Source of the DNA: Streptomyces sp. NBC_01498
GTDB taxonomy: Bacteria; Actinomycetota; Actinomycetes; Streptomycetales; Streptomycetaceae
Length of the DNA: 64,000 bases
Assembly (NCBI RefSeq): GCF_036327775.1
Contig: NZ_CP109598.1
Coordinates: 7,173,501-7,237,500 of the forward strand
Direction of reading: 5' to 3'
Shown here: positions 7,584 to 63,857 of the stretch, one piece after another
Layout: every line of letters begins with the position of its first letter
Position numbering within the stretch: position 1 is the first letter of the stretch
Made by a program: the position numbers and the translations under genes
The notes under the pieces: generated by a model
What the model was told of the DNA's origin: nothing
What the model saw: only the letters and a program-made list of their open reading frames with translations
Databases searched by the model: none

Positions 7584-7919
7584 CGCGCTTCTCCTCCACC
7601 CGGATCCGATCCGGGCCGTCGACCGATCACCCCGGCCGGAGGCCCCGGCCGCACTCCACCAACGACGCGTCGCACCGTTCGACACGCGGCCTCACCAGGG
7701 AGATCATCAGGAACGATTCTGCTTCCGCCGCGAGGGCCCGGTCGGCCGCCTCGGGAATTTCATTGCATAAGCGGTTAAAGTGAACATATCGCCCGTATGG
7801 GGGTGAGAGTGGATCCGCGAGGCCCGTCCGTACGCCCCGGCGCAGGACGCGCCGGCGGGAACGGCCCCCGGGCCGCCGACCGACGGTCGGCGTCGCGCGA
7901 CGCCGAGAGGGTGAGGCGT
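7584..7919. promoter_or_regulatory. 336-bp divergent intergenic region
   Basis: Separates the secreted-protein gene (minus) from the SpoIIE-type gene (plus). The stretch 7755-7790 is clearly AT-richer than its surroundings and is the likely promoter region for the plus-strand gene; no clean consensus hexamer pair could be assigned. No gene is seen in it. Confidence 0.4.
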
Positions 7920-10139
7920 ATGGAACGCCCCGTGAGCGCGTCGACCGACGGCCGAGCCTGGATCCAGCAGCTCGAAGACACCCTGGCCGAGGCCATGGGA
8001 CGGACCGGCTCCCCCGTGAGCCTGGTCTACATGCTCCCCCAGGGAGAACAGGTCCTGCGCCTCGTCCTGCTGGGCGGCCTGCCCTGGGACCTCGCCGCCC
8101 CCTGGGCCCGGGTCCCCCTGGAGACCGCGACCCCGGTGGCCGACGCCGTCCGCGAGGAACGGCTGGTCTGGCTCGGCGGCCAGGAGGAGATCGCCCGCCA
8201 CTACCCCCAGCTGGGAATGCTGCTCCCGTACGACTTCGTCCTCGCCTCCGCACCCGTGACCGGCGGACCGATCCGCGGCGGGATCGTCCTCGCATGGCCC
8301 GTCTGGCACCGGCCCGAGCCCAGCGAGGAGGAACGCGAGGCCATCGCGCTCTGCTCCCGGCGCGTGGGACAGGTCCTCGGGCACGCGGTCACCGGCCGGA
8401 CGTCCCTCCATTTCGACAAACCGCGCATCATGGCCCCGACCCGCCCGCCCGACCCCGACCCCACCCAGGCCAGGGCCGCGTACGAGTTCGCCGAACGGCT
8501 GCCCACCGGGTGCTGCGCCCTGGACCTGGACGGCCGCGTCACCTTCTACAACCCCGCCGCCCTCGACCTGGTCGGCGGCGGTGGCACCCTCGTACTCGGC
8601 CAGCGCCCCTGGGAGACTCTGTCCTGGCTGCGCGACCCGGTCTTCGAGGACAGCTTCCGCGAGACGGTGATCGCCCGCCGGCCCACCACCTTCACCGCGG
8701 TCCGACCATCCGGCACCCGCCTCGACTTCACCCTCCACCCGGGCGACCACGGCATCAGCGTCTCCCTGACACCCGCGGACGCGCTCACGGCCCCGCCCGC
8801 CGCCCCGCCCGCCACGGCGGAACAGGGCCCCGGCAGCGCGTCGCGGCCACCGGCCGCCCAGACCCCGTCCCGACGACAGGCCACCGTGCTCGGCGAGCCG
8901 GTCGGCGCGACAGCCCTCTACCACCTCACCCATCTCGCGGTCGCCCTCACCGAGGCCGTCGGCGTCAGGGACGTGGCCCGCATCGTCTGCGACCAGCTCA
9001 TCCCCGGCTTCGGCGCCCAGGGCCTGGTCCTGCTCACCGTGGAGGAGGGCCGGCTGGGCGTCGTCACCCACCGCGGCTACAGCACCGAATTCGTCGAACG
9101 GATCGACAACGAACCCGTGAGCGCCTTCGCCCCCCACCGGGAATCCCTGGCCACCGGCAAACCGATCTTCCTCGCCACGTACGCCGAATTCCGCCGCTCC
9201 TACCCCGACGCGCCCCGCTTCGCCATGCGCAACGCCTGGGCCTTCCTGCCTCTCATCGCCTCCGGGCGGGCCATGGGCTCCCTCGTCCTGTCCTACGACC
9301 GGGCACGGACCTTCCCCCCGTCCGAACGCGCCGTCCTCACCTCGTTGTCCGGCCTGATCGCCCAGGCCCTGGACCGCGCCCGCCTCTACGACGCCAAGCA
9401 GACACTCACCCGCGCCCTCCAGACCGGCCTGCTGCCCCACTCCCTGCCCCACGCCCCCGGCGTGGACGTCGTGGCGCGCTACCTGCCCGCCGGTCCCGAC
9501 ACGGACATCGGCGGCGACTTCTACGACCTCATCCACAGCACGTCCGCACCCGCCACCGTCTCCGCCGTCATCGGTGACGTCGAAGGCCACAACGTGCACG
9601 CCGCCGCCCTCATGGGACAGATACGCATCGCCATCCACGCCCTCGCCACGGCGGGCACCCCGCCCGGCGCCGTTCTCGCCCGGACGAACCGCCTGCTGAC
9701 CGACCTCGAACCCGGCCTCTTCACCAGCTGCCTCATCGCCCACCTCGACCCGCTCCGCCACCGCGCCCGCCTCGCCACCGCCGGACACCCCCCGGCCCTG
9801 CTGCGCCACCCCGACGGCCACACCGACATCCTCGACCTGGCGCCGGGACTGCTGCTCGGCATCGACCCCGGCGGCGAGTACCCCACCACCGAGGTCCCCT
9901 TCCCGCCCGGCAGCCTGCTCGTCCTCTACACGGACGGACTCGTCGAAGTCCCCGGCACCGACATCGAGGACACCACCCGGAGCCTCGCCCAGCAGGTCGC
10001 CCGGGCGGACACAGGGAACCTGGACGAACTCGCCGACGCCCTCGTCCGGCGGGCCAAGCAGGCCGTACCCCGCCACGACGACATCGCCCTGCTGCTCATC
10101 CGCTCGCACCCCGCCCCGGGCACGGACACCCGGCGGTGA
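7920..10139 (+). CDS. Multisensor PP2C-type (SpoIIE) serine phosphatase
   Basis: 739 residues in the order N-terminal GAF-like region (~20-150), PAS (~175-285, LPTGCCALDLDGRVTFYNPAA), GAF (~330-490) and a C-terminal SpoIIE/PP2C phosphatase. The phosphatase metal-site motifs are intact: IGGDFYDLI, IGDVEGHNVHAA, LYTDGLVE and RHDDIALLL. Such proteins usually dephosphorylate anti-anti-sigma factors in partner-switching control of alternative sigma factors. The ATG at 7920 (MERPVSAS) is chosen because GAGAGGGTGAGG precedes it; an in-frame GTG at 7911 and an ATG at 7797 are alternatives. It is followed by another sensor of the same class. Confidence 0.85.
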   Translation: MERPVSASTDGRAWIQQLEDTLAEAMGRTGSPVSLVYMLPQGEQVLRLVLLGGLPWDLAAPWARVPLETATPVADAVREERLVWLGGQEEIARHYPQLGMLLPYDFVLASAPVTGGPIRGGIVLAWPVWHRPEPSEEEREAIALCSRRVGQVLGHAVTGRTSLHFDKPRIMAPTRPPDPDPTQARAAYEFAERLPTGCCALDLDGRVTFYNPAALDLVGGGGTLVLGQRPWETLSWLRDPVFEDSFRETVIARRPTTFTAVRPSGTRLDFTLHPGDHGISVSLTPADALTAPPAAPPATAEQGPGSASRPPAAQTPSRRQATVLGEPVGATALYHLTHLAVALTEAVGVRDVARIVCDQLIPGFGAQGLVLLTVEEGRLGVVTHRGYSTEFVERIDNEPVSAFAPHRESLATGKPIFLATYAEFRRSYPDAPRFAMRNAWAFLPLIASGRAMGSLVLSYDRARTFPPSERAVLTSLSGLIAQALDRARLYDAKQTLTRALQTGLLPHSLPHAPGVDVVARYLPAGPDTDIGGDFYDLIHSTSAPATVSAVIGDVEGHNVHAAALMGQIRIAIHALATAGTPPGAVLARTNRLLTDLEPGLFTSCLIAHLDPLRHRARLATAGHPPALLRHPDGHTDILDLAPGLLLGIDPGGEYPTTEVPFPPGSLLVLYTDGLVEVPGTDIEDTTRSLAQQVARADTGNLDELADALVRRAKQAVPRHDDIALLLIRSHPAPGTDTRR

Positions 10140-55402: not shown

Positions 55403-55457
55403 CGAAGGATGTTGACCGGTACGGGCGGACCACGGAGTCCGGGCGAGGGGAGAACAC

Positions 55458-55847
55458 ATGACGTACCCGGTCGAACCGACCGCGCCCGTGGTCCGTGGCG
55501 TCGGCCACGCCGGGGATGCCGACGCTGCCGCGCCGCGCGGACGGCGGGACGAGACCCGGACGCGGACCGGGGAAGTGGTCGACAGACTGGTCGGGGCGGC
55601 GAGTCCGGGGCGGGTCGTGACGCGGGCGACCCGGACGCCGAACAACATGCCCGCCGGTATCCGGCACGTCCCGGAGGACTTCCTGACCGCCGTCCGCGAC
55701 ATGCCCGACGGCCCCGGCACCATCGGCGTGGCGTTGGGCCGGACCCTTGTCGCCGACGCGGGCCCGGTGATCTCCCGTACGACCGGGCGGCCCGGCTGCA
55801 CGGTGACCCCGACCTGGCGACGCCCGCCGGACCGGACGGCACGATGA
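55458..55847 (+). CDS. Trypco1-like protein, diverged copy 2
   Basis: 129 residues aligned end to end with copy 1 (RVVTRATRTPNNMPAGIRHV, PEDFLTAVRDMPDGPGTIGV, then TLVADAGPVISRTTGRPGCT and VTPTWRR), but the N-terminal 40 residues and several hydrophobic core positions differ and an extra Arg-rich stretch is present. It keeps the ATGA coupling to the next gene. It may have a different partner preference or be decaying. Confidence 0.7.
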   Translation: MTYPVEPTAPVVRGVGHAGDADAAAPRGRRDETRTRTGEVVDRLVGAASPGRVVTRATRTPNNMPAGIRHVPEDFLTAVRDMPDGPGTIGVALGRTLVADAGPVISRTTGRPGCTVTPTWRRPPDRTAR

Positions 55848-58800
55848 CGCCGGCCCGGGGACCGGAACAGCGACCGGCGGCAGGCGGCCCGAAGCCCCTG
55901 GACGGCGCGCTGCTGCGCATCCTGGACACGTCCGGGCGACCCGTCGGCGTGGGCTTTCTGGTGTCCGACACACTTGCCCTGACCTGCGCGCACGTGGTCT
56001 CCGCGGCCCTCGGTACGCCGGCCGGCACACCACCGGAACCCGGCGCCCGCGTCTCGGCCGACCTGCCTCTCGTGCCCCACACGCCCCGTACGGACGCCGC
56101 CGTCGACGTGTGGGTGCCACCGCGGGGGCCGGACGGTACGGCATCGGGCGCGGCGTCCGCAGTGACTTCCGGCACGGCGGATGTCGCCGTGCTGCGGTTC
56201 CCGGCTCCGTTGCCCGGCGCCGGTCCGGTGCGGCTGGTCGACGCGGACGGACCGATGGTCGTGGACAGGTCGACGGTCGCGGGCGGACCGTCCGCCGCGT
56301 CCGCCACCGACGCGACGGGCGCGCTGTGGGGGCACCGGGTGCGTGCGTTCGGGTTGCCGGCCGGTCGTCCGGGTGGGGTGTGGCACGCGGGGGTCCTGCG
56401 GGGTCGGCAGGCCGACGGCTGGGTACAGGCGGATCTCGTCGGTGAGGGCTACCCGGTGTCGCGGGGCTTCAGCGGCGGCCCCGTGTGGGACGAGCGGCTG
56501 TCCGGCGTGGTCGGCATGGTCACGGTGGCCGAATCCGGGCAGCCCCACGTCAGTTACCTGATCCCCACCCGCGCCCTCGTGGCCGCCCGACCCGAACTGC
56601 GCGCCCTCGTGGCACCCGCCTCGCCGTTCCGCGGACTCGCCGCCTACGAGGAGGCCGACGCGCACCTCTTCCACGGCAGGCGGCACGAGAGCGAGCGGAT
56701 CGCCCGCACACTCGGCGAACACCGGTGGGTCACCCTCGTGGGCCCCTCGGGCTCCGGCAAATCGTCACTGGCCCTGGCCGGCGTGGCCCCCCGACTGCGG
56801 GCACGCGGCGCCCGCGTCGTCGTCATGCGCCCCGCGTCCGGCAGCAGCCCCCTCGCGGCCCTCGCCTCCGCGCTGCTCCCGCACCTGGAACCCGACCTCC
56901 CCGAGACCCGACGGCTCGCCCGCCTCCCCGAACTCTCCGACGAGCTGCGCCGCCACGGCCTCACCGCCCCGGCCGACCGCCTGCTCCGGCTCCAGGGCGC
57001 CCGCCAACTCCTCCTGATCGTTGACCAGTTGGAGGAACTGCTTCCGCAACACCCGGACGCCGTGCGCGACCTGGCCGACGTACTGTTCGCCCCCGACGCC
57101 CTGCCGTCCGCCGTTCGCGTCCTCACCACCCTGCGCGCCGACTTCCTCGAACCCGTCCTCGGCCACCCCCACCTCGGACCCGTCGCCGCCCGCCACCTGC
57201 ACGCCCTCGCCCCCCTCGGCCGGGACGGCCTGCGCGACATCGTCACCACCCCCGTCGACACCCTCCCCGGCGTCTCCTACGAGCCCCACCTCGCCGAACG
57301 CATCCTCACCGACACCGGCACCGAACCCGGCGCCCTGCCCCTCCTCGCCCTCACCCTCGATCTCCTGTGGCAGCGGCAGACGGACGGAGTGCTCACCCAC
57401 CACGCGTACGACGAACTCGGCGGCGTCACCGGCGCCCTCGGCAACCACGCCGACCGGGTGTGGGCCGCACACGTACCACCCGGCGACGAGGCGACCGCCC
57501 GCCTGCTGTTCACCCACCTCGTCCGGCTGCTCCTCGGCGCCGCCGCGGGCACCCGACGGCTCGCCCGGCGCGCCGACCTCGGCGAGGACCGGTGGCGCGT
57601 CGCCCAACACCTCGCCGCGCACACCCGGCTCCTCGTCACCGACCGCGGCGCCGACGGCACCGAGACCGTGGAACTCACCCACGAGGCGCTGATCGGCGCG
57701 TGGGACAGACTCGCCGCATGGGTGGCCGAGGACCGGTCCTTCCTCGGCTGGCGGGAGACCGTACGACACGAGAAGGACCGCTGGCAGGAAGCGGACCGGG
57801 CCCCCGAACACCTGCCGACCACCGCGACGGCGGCCGGCGCCGACCAGTGGCTCCCGGAACGCGCCGCCGTGCTGACCGCGGCCGAGCGGGACTACCTGAC
57901 GGCCGGCCGCACCCACCGCCGCGCGAAGGTCCGCCGTCGCCGGGCCCTGTTCACCGTTCTGGTCACGGTCCTGACGTCCGCCCTGGTACTCGGCGGCCTC
58001 TCCCTCGCCGAACGCCACAACAGCCGGGAACGCGCCGCCTTCGGCGCCTCCCGCGCCCTCGCCCAGGCCGCCCAGGAGGCGACCGGCACCGACCCCGCCC
58101 GCGCCGCACTGCTCTCCCTCGCCGCCTACCACAGATCACCCACACAGGAGGCCGAGAACGAACTGCTGCGCCAGTACCTCCAGTACACGGACTACGACCG
58201 GGTGCTCTCCGGCGAACTCGGCGACACCGCCTTCGACCGGAGCCACGACGGCGACGTGGTCCTCGCGACGTCCAAGCGCTCCGGGGTCACCCTGTTCGTG
58301 GCCGCCCTGACCGGACCGGTACGCACCGTGCGCGTGCCGTCCACCGACAAGGTCCAGTACGTGATGGTGTCCGCCGACGGGTCACGCGCCGCCTACGTGC
58401 AACACGACGGCAGGGCCGTGTGGTTCGCCGTACGCCCCGACGCGAAACACCCCGCCGGGCCCCTGCACCGGCTCCCCGACGCCCCCGGCATCGGCACCAA
58501 CTGGAGCGACACCGTCACCCCCGCGATGTCCCTCGACGGCACGATGATCGTCGCGCACGTCCGCGAACGCATCGTCCGGTGGAACCTGGACAGCGGCCCG
58601 CACGGCGCCCTCGCGGGAAATCTCCCCGCGCCGAAGGGCCTGGAGTTCCGCATGTGGCCGGCCCCCGACAACCGGACGCTGCTGGTCCCCGTCTACAAGC
58701 GGTTCCGCGCCTTCGGGGAGGGCGAGAAGGGCAGCCTCCTCGCACTCGACCTCGTGACGGGCAGGAGCCGGCTCGTACTGCGCGCCGACGCCGACCAGAT

Positions 58801-60298
58801 CCGCGTCTCCGGCGACCGGACCCGCGCCGTCCTGTGCCATGTGCGGGGCGACACCACCGAGATCACCGTCCACCGGGTCACCGACGGCTCACGGGAGGGC
58901 ATCGCCTACCGCGAGAAGAACGCGGACTTCACGTCGAGCACCTGCGGGGCGCAGTCCGTCGACCGTTCCGGCCTCCGCGTCGCCCTCAGCTCCCCCAAGG
59001 GCCTCAGCGTCGTCGACATGCGCGACGGCACGGTCCTCTCCCGCAACGGCCTGCCCGCCTCGACCTCCTCCCTGGCCAGGAGCAGCCCCTGGCTCGTGGA
59101 GAGGGACGGCCGGCTCTACTACCTCCGCCACGACGAGTCGATGATCGGCTACGTCCGACTGCGCCCCGGCCACTGGTTCCTCGACGTCGCCCAGCAACTC
59201 CTCACCCGCGACGGCACGTACACCATCAGCGTCCTGGCGGACGGCTCCCGCATACAGCGGCACCACGCGCGCAAAGCCGCCCCCCGCGCCGTCGCCGACG
59301 TGCCGCGCCGCAGGCCCCACTGGGTGCCCGAACGCAGCGAACCCCTCGCCCTCGACCGCACCGGACGGCTCGTCGCCGACCGCGAGGGCGCGAACATCGT
59401 CACCGTCCGCGACACCACCACCCTGCGCCGCACCACGACCGTCACCACCGTCCCGCCCCCACGCCTGTCCGGCTCCGCGCCCTCGATCGCGGACATCGGC
59501 GGCGGCGGCGACGGCGGTGCCGAACGGCCGGCGTACGACTTCACCTACTTCTTCGACCACTCCGGCAACCTCGTCACCGTCTCGGGAACCGTCGTCGAAC
59601 AGTGGGACCCACACACCGGCCGACGGCTCACACGTTTCGACGCGGCGGCCGTCCGCTCCCGGGCCGGAGGCGCGAAGGACTCGGACCTGATGATCGGCCC
59701 CTACCCGGCGAGGAACCGGGTTGCCGTCGTCGTCCTGGACCGGCCCGGCATCCACATCGTCGACATCACCACCGGACGCACCACCGAGACCGTGAAGACC
59801 GGCGACGACATCCTCGCCTCCCACTTCGACGCCACCGGAACATACGTCGCCATCCTGCGCCGGGGCTCGGTGCTCGAACTCTGGCGGAACGGCGACCCGC
59901 CCCACAAGGAGATCGGCCCCCTGCGCAGCATCGCCGAGTCGGACTCCACGCCGTACGCCGCCGGATTCCTGGACGGCGGAGGCCGCTACCTCCTCGCGGC
60001 GAACAACGCCGTACGCGTCTACCGCATGGGCCGGCCCGGCTACGAGACCTTCTACTCCTTCACCGGCCCCCGCGACAGCGCACTCGACGGCCGGCACGCC
60101 TTCATGGGCGCCTCCGCGGACGGCGGCACCGTCCTCCACATCGGCCCCGACGGCATCGGCGGACCACTCCACCTGGCGCCCGACCGCTGGTACCGCGAAC
60201 TGTGCGCCATCATCGGCGACCGACAACTCACCCCCGGCGAAGTGGACCTGCTGCCCGCCGACCCGGGAACCCGGAAACCCTGTGCCGAAACCGACTGA
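55844..60298 (+). CDS. Trypsin-nSTAND NTPase-beta-propeller conflict protein, copy 2
   Basis: 1484 residues with the same order as copy 1: protease with His50, Asp113 and Ser210 (GFSGGPVW), nSTAND1 (PFRGLAAYEEADAHLFHGRR; Walker A Lys306; Walker B LLLIVDQLEELL), membrane helix ~699-722 (LFTVLVTVLTSALVLGGLSL) and a beta-propeller. A 24-residue insertion (GPMVVDRSTVAGGPSAASAT and four more) lies in the protease before the Ser. All catalytic residues are intact, so both copies are likely active. The propeller is the most diverged part, as expected if it is the sensor. Confidence 0.88.
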   Translation: MTPARGPEQRPAAGGPKPLDGALLRILDTSGRPVGVGFLVSDTLALTCAHVVSAALGTPAGTPPEPGARVSADLPLVPHTPRTDAAVDVWVPPRGPDGTASGAASAVTSGTADVAVLRFPAPLPGAGPVRLVDADGPMVVDRSTVAGGPSAASATDATGALWGHRVRAFGLPAGRPGGVWHAGVLRGRQADGWVQADLVGEGYPVSRGFSGGPVWDERLSGVVGMVTVAESGQPHVSYLIPTRALVAARPELRALVAPASPFRGLAAYEEADAHLFHGRRHESERIARTLGEHRWVTLVGPSGSGKSSLALAGVAPRLRARGARVVVMRPASGSSPLAALASALLPHLEPDLPETRRLARLPELSDELRRHGLTAPADRLLRLQGARQLLLIVDQLEELLPQHPDAVRDLADVLFAPDALPSAVRVLTTLRADFLEPVLGHPHLGPVAARHLHALAPLGRDGLRDIVTTPVDTLPGVSYEPHLAERILTDTGTEPGALPLLALTLDLLWQRQTDGVLTHHAYDELGGVTGALGNHADRVWAAHVPPGDEATARLLFTHLVRLLLGAAAGTRRLARRADLGEDRWRVAQHLAAHTRLLVTDRGADGTETVELTHEALIGAWDRLAAWVAEDRSFLGWRETVRHEKDRWQEADRAPEHLPTTATAAGADQWLPERAAVLTAAERDYLTAGRTHRRAKVRRRRALFTVLVTVLTSALVLGGLSLAERHNSRERAAFGASRALAQAAQEATGTDPARAALLSLAAYHRSPTQEAENELLRQYLQYTDYDRVLSGELGDTAFDRSHDGDVVLATSKRSGVTLFVAALTGPVRTVRVPSTDKVQYVMVSADGSRAAYVQHDGRAVWFAVRPDAKHPAGPLHRLPDAPGIGTNWSDTVTPAMSLDGTMIVAHVRERIVRWNLDSGPHGALAGNLPAPKGLEFRMWPAPDNRTLLVPVYKRFRAFGEGEKGSLLALDLVTGRSRLVLRADADQIRVSGDRTRAVLCHVRGDTTEITVHRVTDGSREGIAYREKNADFTSSTCGAQSVDRSGLRVALSSPKGLSVVDMRDGTVLSRNGLPASTSSLARSSPWLVERDGRLYYLRHDESMIGYVRLRPGHWFLDVAQQLLTRDGTYTISVLADGSRIQRHHARKAAPRAVADVPRRRPHWVPERSEPLALDRTGRLVADREGANIVTVRDTTTLRRTTTVTTVPPPRLSGSAPSIADIGGGGDGGAERPAYDFTYFFDHSGNLVTVSGTVVEQWDPHTGRRLTRFDAAAVRSRAGGAKDSDLMIGPYPARNRVAVVVLDRPGIHIVDITTGRTTETVKTGDDILASHFDATGTYVAILRRGSVLELWRNGDPPHKEIGPLRSIAESDSTPYAAGFLDGGGRYLLAANNAVRVYRMGRPGYETFYSFTGPRDSALDGRHAFMGASADGGTVLHIGPDGIGGPLHLAPDRWYRELCAIIGDRQLTPGEVDLLPADPGTRKPCAETD

Positions 60299-62738: not shown

Positions 62739-62771
62739 GGAGCCCGAGAGCATGTCCAGCTCCCGGGCTCC
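62739..62771 (-). terminator. Hairpin ending the permuted-tRNA unit
   Basis: GGAGCCCG-A-GAGC and GCTC-C-CGGGCTCC form a 12-bp stem with one internal mismatch. On the minus strand it follows the second permuted tRNA-like gene by about 50 bases and probably ends that transcript. Confidence 0.55.
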
Positions 62772-62823
62772 AGCTTGCCACCCATTTGCGCACACCGGCG
62801 GCGTTTAAGAACCGCAGGTCATG

Positions 62824-62900
62824 TTGAGATCGACGTGTTCTGCCTTTGAACTACAGCGCCACGAGAGAGGCGCCGGGGGGACTTGAACCCCCATCCGTCG
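62824..62900 (-). tRNA. Permuted tRNA-like gene B (3' half before 5' half)
   Basis: Minus strand, in order: anticodon-stem 3' strand CGACG (62900-62896), short variable part GAT, T arm GGGGG-TTCAAGT-CCCCC, acceptor 3' strand CGGCGCC (62875-62869), an 8-base linker, then acceptor 5' strand GGCGCTG (62860-62854), TA, D arm GTTC-AAAGGCA-GAAC, A, anticodon-stem 5' strand CGTCG (62835-62831) and loop ATCTCAA, giving anticodon CTC. All helices pair fully (one G-T) only in permuted order. Joined length about 70 plus CCA is normal. No usual-order partner for either half lies nearby. Confidence 0.7.
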
Positions 62901-62966
62901 ATTTTCGCCCGCGCTCGGTCGATCCGGTGTTCGGCGGCGAATACTGAGACTGGAGCGAGAATCTGA

Positions 62967-63050
62967 GTTTCACGGGGCCGCCTCTGCCAGGCTTGGGCCA
63001 CCCCCGCACGTGGTGCGGGGAGAGGGATTCGAACCCCCAACTGACACCCC
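62967..63050 (-). tRNA. Permuted tRNA-like gene A (3' half before 5' half)
   Basis: Minus strand, in order: anticodon-stem 3' strand GGGGT (63050-63046), variable GTCAGTT, T arm GGGGG-TTCGAAT-CCCTC, acceptor 3' strand TCCCCGC (63021-63015), A and an encoded CCA (63013-63011), linker CGT, then acceptor 5' strand GCGGGGG (63007-63001), TG, D arm GCC...GGC, G, anticodon-stem 5' strand GCCCC (62978-62974) and loop GTGAAAC, giving anticodon GAA. Acceptor and anticodon stems pair 7/7 and 5/5 with one wobble each. The D loop is long (13) and the variable loop has 7 bases. It is not similar to the host tRNA-Phe type. Confidence 0.65.
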
Positions 63051-63092
63051 TCATCAGCTTCAACATCAGTTTCAGCTTGCGCTCATCGCGCA

Positions 63093-63113
63093 CCCTCCGC
63101 TCGCGACGGAGGG
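63093..63113 (-). terminator. Hairpin between coding gene and permuted tRNAs
   Basis: CCCTCCG (63093-63099) and CGGAGGG (63107-63113) form a perfect 7-bp stem with a 7-base loop, 13 bp after the stop of the upstream gene. It may be a terminator, an attenuator or an RNA-processing signal separating the mRNA from the tRNA-like part. Confidence 0.5.
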
Positions 63114-63125
63114 CGTATGTGGGGG

Positions 63126-63857
63126 CTACCGGAAGAGGTAGCCGAATACCGCGTCGCCGACCCGCTGGTCGGTGACCTCGGTGTTGTTCGCTTCCTCGCG
63201 GGCGAACTTGACGGACTGCTGGAGCTTCTCGACGCGGTCGAGGAGCTCGTTGACCCGCCGGGCGGGCAGCGCGCCGGAGAACTTCACCGTGGTCCAGTAA
63301 CCGACCGGGACGTCCTCGTAGTACACCTCGACCTGCGCCGGGTGCTTCTCCGTGGCCTCGGCCTTCACGTGATTGCGCGGAACCTTCTTCGTGCGGATGG
63401 TCCGCACCGGGTCCGTCTTCCACGAGTCGGTCGAGGGATCCAGGTTCCACGACTCGGAGGCGTCGAGCACCGGCAGCTTGCGCACGAAGGTGTGCAGGTC
63501 CGTGAGTTGCTTCTCCAGGAACAACAGGTACGGCACGGGCACCTGGGTCAACAGCACCGTACCGTCGACCACCACGTCCGCGACCGCGGACCGGTTCGCC
63601 CAGTCCTTCGTCGCAGTCACGTCGAAGAGCCGCGTCAGTGTCCCGGCGGTCGCCCGCAGAGCGTCCTCGGCCTTGATCTGCACCCGCGTGGACTCGGGCG
63701 GCAGCTGCTCACCCTCCTCGTCCTTGGGCTGGTAGGTCCGGGAGATGCCGGCCAGCAGGGCGGGCTTCTGCACGTCCTGGTGAGCCTGGGTAAGCTCCTG
63801 GAGGGCCTTGGACTTGACGCCCTTTTCGACAGCGATGATCTGATTCAGCTTCGGCAC
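63126..63857 (-). CDS. Conserved actinobacterial protein of unknown function (DUF7873-like)
   Basis: 243 residues starting with GTG (PKLNQIIAVEKGVKSKALQE), soluble, rich in charged residues. Conserved-looking blocks include QKPALLAGISRTYQPKDEEG, DVTATKDWANRSAVADVVVD, LLFLEKQLTDLHTFVRKLPV and VKFSGALPARRVNELLDRVE. I recall this as a conserved protein of actinobacteria and some of their phages, possibly DUF7873; no function is known to me. The two permuted tRNA-like genes follow on the same strand within 300 bp, which makes a shared function an attractive inference. Confidence 0.7.
   Translation of the reverse strand: MPKLNQIIAVEKGVKSKALQELTQAHQDVQKPALLAGISRTYQPKDEEGEQLPPESTRVQIKAEDALRATAGTLTRLFDVTATKDWANRSAVADVVVDGTVLLTQVPVPYLLFLEKQLTDLHTFVRKLPVLDASESWNLDPSTDSWKTDPVRTIRTKKVPRNHVKAEATEKHPAQVEVYYEDVPVGYWTTVKFSGALPARRVNELLDRVEKLQQSVKFAREEANNTEVTDQRVGDAVFGYLFR

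Follow-up and report, generated by a model that had tools for sequence, protein, structure and literature searches.

On the minus strand of a Streptomyces chromosome, directly 3' of a gene for a DUF7873 protein, two tRNA-like sequences lie side by side with their halves in reversed order: are these permuted tRNA genes, as an earlier note on this DNA had read them, or are they components of something else?

The locus and its two tRNA-like domains

In the 64-kb window (the whole stretch of DNA analysed, 64,000 nt), both tRNA-like domains (TLDs) begin with the T arm, followed by the 3' strand of the acceptor, a linker, the 5' strand of the acceptor and the D arm. The permuted order, the strands and the 7-8-nt linkers that the earlier note had claimed are all present in 63050-62824 of the minus strand, and the stems CGTCG/CGACG and CCCC/GGGG do pair, as it held, solely in the rearranged order. 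TLD1 consists of a T arm (63038-63022), TCCCCGC (63021-63015), a 7-nt linker, GCGGGGG (63007-63001) and a D arm (GCC/GGC); TLD2 of a T arm (62892-62876), CGGCGCC (62875-62869), an 8-nt linker, GGCGCTG (62860-62854) and a D arm (GTTC/GAAC). Each sits on a long bulged stem, and both are parts of one predicted RNA, the gene for which is probably transcribed and comprises the following features (percentages are paired cells in alignments of homologues):

63126..63857, minus: DUF7873 gene (PF25283), 243 aa, 402.9 bits
62739..63115, minus: predicted gene for an RNA of about 375 nt, its termini predicted from the flanking hairpins
63089..63115, minus: 5' hairpin of the RNA, directly 3' of the DUF7873 stop codon (from sequence and fold)
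62944..63075, minus: arm 1, carrying TLD1 (from the homologue alignment)
63075-63067/62952-62944, minus: arm 1 outer helix, 82.4%
63061-63054/62966-62959, minus: arm 1 inner helix, 78.1%
62958-62953, minus: conserved TCGCTC of arm 1
62974..63050, minus: TLD1 and its closing stem GGGG/CCCC; T helix 100%, acceptor 98.8% (49 sequences)
63001..63021, minus: TLD1 acceptor, namely TCCCCGC, discriminator A, encoded CCA, CGT and GCGGGGG
62792..62930, minus: arm 2, carrying TLD2 (from the homologue alignment)
62930-62924/62798-62792, minus: arm 2 helix P1, 99.3% (47 sequences)
62923-62917, minus: ATCGACC of arm 2, between P1 and P2 on the 5' side
62916-62908/62818-62809, minus: arm 2 helix P2, 89.8% (47 sequences)
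62808-62802, minus: TTAAACG of arm 2
62829..62902, minus: TLD2 and its closing stem ATCGACG/CGTCGAT; T helix 99.6%, acceptor 99.7% (47 sequences)
62739..62771, minus: 13-bp hairpin with no run of Ts, probably the 3' end or a terminator (from sequence and fold)

The last of these hairpins is absent from the output of a scan for terminators with T runs. Two covariance models, R1 for arm 2 (147 positions, 47 sequences) and R2 for arm 1, match the RNA of the window over their full length at 149 and 142.2 bits, respectively, the window sequence being part of both training sets.

Conservation and covariation across homologues

The earlier note had argued that two such structures side by side were not the work of chance and had proposed looking for helix compensation in homologous loci. 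Such compensation is pervasive. In arm 2 (47 sequences), 95.5% of the cells are paired, 29 of the 31 pairs are altered on both sides, and double changes occur in 306 cells where shuffles give 75.3; in arm 1 (49 sequences), 89.7% are paired, 21 of the 30 pairs are altered on both sides, and the double-changed cells number 122 against 33.8, the shuffles ignoring kinship and the structures being drawn from the same alignments in which the pairs were counted. Sliding the partners leaves 41.6-47.6% of the cells paired in arm 2 and 29.7-47.4% in arm 1. Because the homologues keep their pairing through compensatory change, a chance origin is excluded. The layout of arm 2 runs from P1 through an internal loop (ATCGA on one side, TTAAACG on the other), P2 and the closing stem to TLD2. 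When the window RNA is folded by minimum energy, the T and acceptor helices of the TLDs are recovered, but P1 and P2 of arm 2 are not. The outer and inner helices of arm 1 covary more weakly than TLD1 itself; both strands of this arm (63075-63054 and 62966-62944) display a 6-nt period of near-invariant U-A/A-U pairs with variable and often mismatched bases in between.

For the traits of the TLDs themselves we compared 77 dissimilar loci, drawn from the 100 of 154 loci in which a TLD pair was present. The elbow and acceptor traits are kept: U8 (in all 77 TLD1s and 75 of the 77 TLD2s, though the search descriptor does not require it), the TTC loop and mostly G1. The discriminator is A in 66/77 TLD1s and U in 57/77 TLD2s, and it is followed by an encoded CCA in 32 and 12 of them, respectively. 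The sequences of the acceptor pairs vary freely, which would speak against an identity for aminoacyl-tRNA synthetases and for proteins that read the elbow. TLD1 appears to be dispensable in some lineages: in several loci, L043, L044, L082 and L083 among them, a plain hairpin stands at its site by visual inspection, with the arm strands kept, and in 5 of the 33 loci of related genomes (G010, G011, G023, G027 and G034) the arm-1 match is only 78-104 nt long and yet runs end to end on the model.

tRNA genes, a 3' untranslated region or an RNA in its own right

If the two sequences were true permuted tRNA genes, yielding tRNAs via circular or spliced intermediates, an anticodon arm should be kept alongside the acceptor. 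The permuted order, the acceptor ends with their encoded CCA and an RtcB ligase encoded in the same genome would suit such genes. However, U33, which the earlier note had rightly seen in the window, is not retained in the homologues (22/77 TLD1s and 29/77 TLD2s); positions 34-36 hold 38 different triplets in TLD1 and 29 in TLD2; and a perfect 5-bp anticodon stem is found in just 34 and 43 of the 77, respectively. Plain hairpins replace TLD1 in the relatives described above, and the tRNA splicing endonuclease family (PF01974) is without a match in the genome (among 14 control genomes, four match, all of them archaea), in line with the note's own remark that the maturing enzyme would be wanting. 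Hence we reject functional permuted tRNA genes as exceedingly improbable: of the note's overall reading, two genuine and conserved permuted tRNA-like structures survive, and what falls is their maturation to tRNAs, the domains being parts of a larger RNA linked to DUF7873. ARAGORN calls no tRNA at 63050-62824. Elsewhere in the window it calls a 97-nt tRNA-His (59695-59791, minus) inside an opposite-strand nSTAND1/Trypsin_2 frame (55409-60298), likely a false positive. The RNA might also be a cis-acting element of the 3' untranslated region that controls the expression of DUF7873 or the decay of its mRNA, for it usually lies directly 3' of the gene on the same strand, with a median distance of 99.5 nt between the end of the gene and the first T arm (100 loci). 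This, too, we deem highly unlikely, as in L199 the RNA is upstream of DUF7873 with a T-tailed hairpin in between, in L197 the two are encoded on opposite strands, and in L126 a HEARO element and a further gene separate it from DUF7873. The first two arrangements in particular imply that the RNA is a unit of its own and not the 3' tail of the DUF7873 mRNA.

Linkage with DUF7873 in bacteria

The RNA and DUF7873 are tightly linked in the bacteria sampled. Among 61 related genomes, 32 encode DUF7873 (33 genes), and R1 matches adjoin all 33 genes, 31 of them at full length with at least 117 bits and two, in G010 and G051, in part (56.8 and 55.9 bits); four of these 32 genomes (G000, the own genome of the window, with G044, G047 and G050) had contributed to the training of R1, and other training strains may overlap too. 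In contrast, the 29 genomes devoid of DUF7873 have no end-to-end R1 match. Their best match, at 50.8 bits, covers the TLD part alone; several such TLD-only matches adjoin Ro60, and the others (at most 44.9 bits, model positions 27-124) have as their equivalent in the own genome a tandem tRNA-Asn pair. The co-occurrence yields a Fisher probability of 4.6e-18 over the 61 genomes, kinship being ignored. Within the genus, 20 of the 37 genomes carry both DUF7873 and the RNA. In a set of 110 such loci, all have at least one match to a descriptor of the permuted TLD and 76 have at least two, chance matches included. Across the compared loci, DUF7873 is the sole gene found to be conserved beside the RNA.

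Linkage in viruses and phages

The same linkage extends to viruses. Of 91 viral loci, 78 are non-duplicate with at least 500 nt 3' of the gene, and within 900 nt of the gene 49 of these have two or more descriptor matches, 19 have one and 10 none. Of 1560 dinucleotide shuffles of these regions, which together gave 31 matches, only one had two or more, and the regions upstream of viral DUF7873 genes gave two matches in 2 of 89. Some of the second descriptor matches look like chance (e.g., those in L180 and L223, although both loci match R1). When 28 of the 29 viral loci with fewer than two descriptor matches were searched with R1, 26 matched at an E value of 0.01 or better; L153 and L185 have no significant match to R1 or R2 in the available viral DNA, and L137, the remaining one, scored 53.5 bits with R1. 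Thus, two TLD matches or an R1 match are found near viral DUF7873 genes in 75 of 77 loci without L137, or in 76 of 78 with it.

All 11 phage records that were read have at least one TLD by descriptor or model, and the RNA-bearing phages infect Actinobacteria, cyanobacteria, Rhizobium, Vibrio and Klebsiella. Among the first seven annotated phage loci, five have two TLDs by descriptor. TLD1 of the Fryberger phage was detected by model (R2, 69.3 bits), as was the copy of a Microcoleus phage (R2, 55.0 bits; R1, 38.1 bits), tandem tRNAs scoring at least as high with R1 as the latter does, whereas its R2 score exceeds theirs. Four more phages (two of Rhizobium, one of Vibrio and one of Pseudanabaena) each have at least one TLD with all seven acceptor pairs formed; those of Rhizobium and Vibrio have a single TLD with a linker of 24-29 nt. 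In six of the seven annotated phage genomes, the RNA accounts for a gap of about 400-1160 nt that follows DUF7873 and carries no annotation; in the seventh, a HEARO element occupies this stretch, with the RNA beyond it. The HEARO element between DUF7873 and the RNA of the Microcoleus phage (L126, 3950-4159) scores 129.1 bits. For 32 of 60 viral loci (out of the 91), ARAGORN finds at least one gene within flanks of roughly 2.5 kb, a raw count without a background rate, and such genes near many viral copies fit a tRNA-related task. Upstream of DUF7873 on the viral contig of L183 (976-1373), it calls a tmRNA.

The DUF7873 protein

The protein encoded beside the RNA matches DUF7873 (PF25283) over residues 1-242 with the 402.9 bits listed above, far beyond the Pfam gathering score of 27 bits, and its nearest relatives, at 98-99% identity, are from Streptomyces. 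A protein search scored 7998 candidates, of which 7499 passed, so that this family of no assigned function numbers at least 7,499 proteins; we found no paper on it in the open full-text literature. Relatives are encoded in 73 of 50,697 phage records, in 4 of 72,556 plasmid records and in 312 viral stretches, of which the best 80 were retained. Of the 14 control genomes, only that of Deinobacterium chartae encodes DUF7873, and it alone has a TROVE match. The structure of the protein is modelled confidently, and no reliable match to it was found among known folds; its pI is slightly acidic (6.51 here, 5.55-5.84 in four others). Since the protein is neither basic nor confidently related to a known fold, it is the genomic linkage that points to binding of the RNA.

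A candidate Y-RNA-like ribonucleoprotein

To our knowledge, permuted tRNA-like domains in bacteria are known solely from Y RNAs, themselves tied to Ro60. The best Rfam matches of the TLD region are to the bacterial Y RNA YrlA (RF02553), at 28.5 and 21.0 bits over the full length, where the gathering score is 69; the 64-kb window contains no match at gathering level in Rfam 15. Such scores are no proof of kinship, because ordinary tandem tRNAs of the same genome reach 39 bits with the YrlA model. The Rfam structure line of YrlA shows the identical permuted order, and thus the topology itself was already known. The own genome encodes a Ro60 1.44 Mb away from the RNA, together with its own single-TLD RNA, which R1 matches over the TLD part alone (47-103 of 147 positions). 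In that locus (L003), the Ro60/TROVE gene is at about 7749-9329 and the YrlA-like RNA directly upstream at about 7590-7712, scoring 33.8 bits, below the threshold.

On balance, and with a confidence only slightly past even, we propose that the locus encodes a noncoding RNA with two permuted TLDs on bulged arms, which likely binds DUF7873 to form a Y-RNA-like ribonucleoprotein independent of Ro60. In PMC8394870, the base stem of YrlA is described as holding Rsr, its tRNA-like domain as binding PNPase and as a substrate of tRNA-modifying enzymes, and bacterial Y RNA as a ligand of Ro60 with a tether to PNPase. By analogy, arms 1 and 2 would hold DUF7873, whereas the TLDs might serve as docking sites for enzymes that recognise the elbow and acceptor of tRNA, such as PNPase (reported for YrlA), RNase P or modification enzymes; the particle could then steer the docked enzymes towards tRNAs or keep them off tRNAs.

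Two other readings grant the structures described above and differ as to their partner or purpose. The RNA could be a true, if distant, YrlA that binds Ro60 (Rsr) although its gene is not beside rsr, DUF7873 being an accessory. The order of the TLD is that of the Rfam consensus, the sub-threshold matches are full length, the own genome has a Ro60, and over the 61 genomes Ro60 is present in 23 of 32 with DUF7873 as against 11 of 29 without (p 0.01). We attribute this association to kinship, though it could reflect either kinship or a real tie; within the genus, the figures are 13 of 20 with and 10 of 17 without (p 0.74). Moreover, nine of the 32 genomes with DUF7873 lack a TROVE match and yet have a full-length RNA; a Ro60-like frame is found in the flanks of only one of 214 DUF7873 loci (tblastn with the own Ro60, flanks of 1.5-3 kb); tandem tRNAs equal or outscore the RNA with the YrlA model; and the own Ro60-linked RNA matches R1 over its TLD alone. 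Accordingly, the identification as a YrlA is quite unlikely, and the RNA does not appear to need Ro60. The single Ro60-like frame (L187, 5143-5733; 43% identity over 204 aa) is about 2 kb from DUF7873 and the RNA on a viral contig.

Alternatively, the TLDs might act as tRNA decoys that titrate nucleases, toxins or modification enzymes and so protect the translation of phage or host during infection, with DUF7873 stabilising or delivering the decoy. Many phages carry the RNA, often near tRNA genes, the TLD retains the elbow and acceptor, and a role as competitive inhibitor is proposed for the domain of YrlA in PMC7790460. Against this, a TLD without an anticodon loop cannot mimic the targets of anticodon nucleases; P1 of arm 2, which is outside the TLD, is paired as well as the TLD; the RNA is carried by those 20 of 37 same-genus genomes, be the copies of viral origin or not; and the three DUF7873 proteins tested have no match in PADLOC. 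We regard a decoy as conceivable but rather improbable.

Returning to the DUF7873 ribonucleoprotein, its wider implication, which we hold by a similarly narrow preponderance, would be a new Ro60-independent class of particles in bacteria and phages (with hosts from at least three phyla), in which back-to-front mimics capture tRNA-handling enzymes. DUF7873 thereby gains an RNA partner that can be tested, and the idea of tRNA mimics is widened beyond Ro60, the RNA ranging from streptomycete chromosomes to phages of Klebsiella, Vibrio, Rhizobium and cyanobacteria. No title on this RNA was found in the open full-text literature; it may have been listed earlier in the main papers on Y RNAs.

Comparison with known systems

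The large ornate phage RNAs GOLLD and ROOL are found close to tRNA genes. The RNA described here is like them a long structured RNA of phages; we set it apart from them tentatively, the window being without a gathering-level Rfam match. In two-piece (permuted) tmRNA, the acceptor strands are likewise in reversed order around a linker. In contrast to these, the present RNA has a canonical D arm and no consistent open frame: the frames of arm 1 are not consistently open across 49 sequences, and the tmRNA model (RF00023) gives 16.7 and 10.5 bits where 47 are needed. Permuted tmRNA genes are mentioned in PMC10085705. With the circularly permuted tRNA genes of algae and archaea, as presented in PMC3978253, it shares the 3' half placed first, the short acceptor linker and sometimes an encoded CCA; unlike them, it has no conserved anticodon loop or U33 and no endonuclease match, and its domains are set inside a larger conserved RNA. 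The nearest known kind is YrlA, which has the same permuted TLD with T arm, acceptor and D arm, a stem with internal loops and the mimicry of tRNA. However, the RNA here is of about 375 nt and usually has two TLDs, scores below the gathering threshold, is paired with DUF7873 rather than placed beside Ro60, and has arm motifs of its own (ATCGA, TTAAACG and TCGCTC). We therefore read it as a Y-RNA-like kind that is probably not a member of YrlA.
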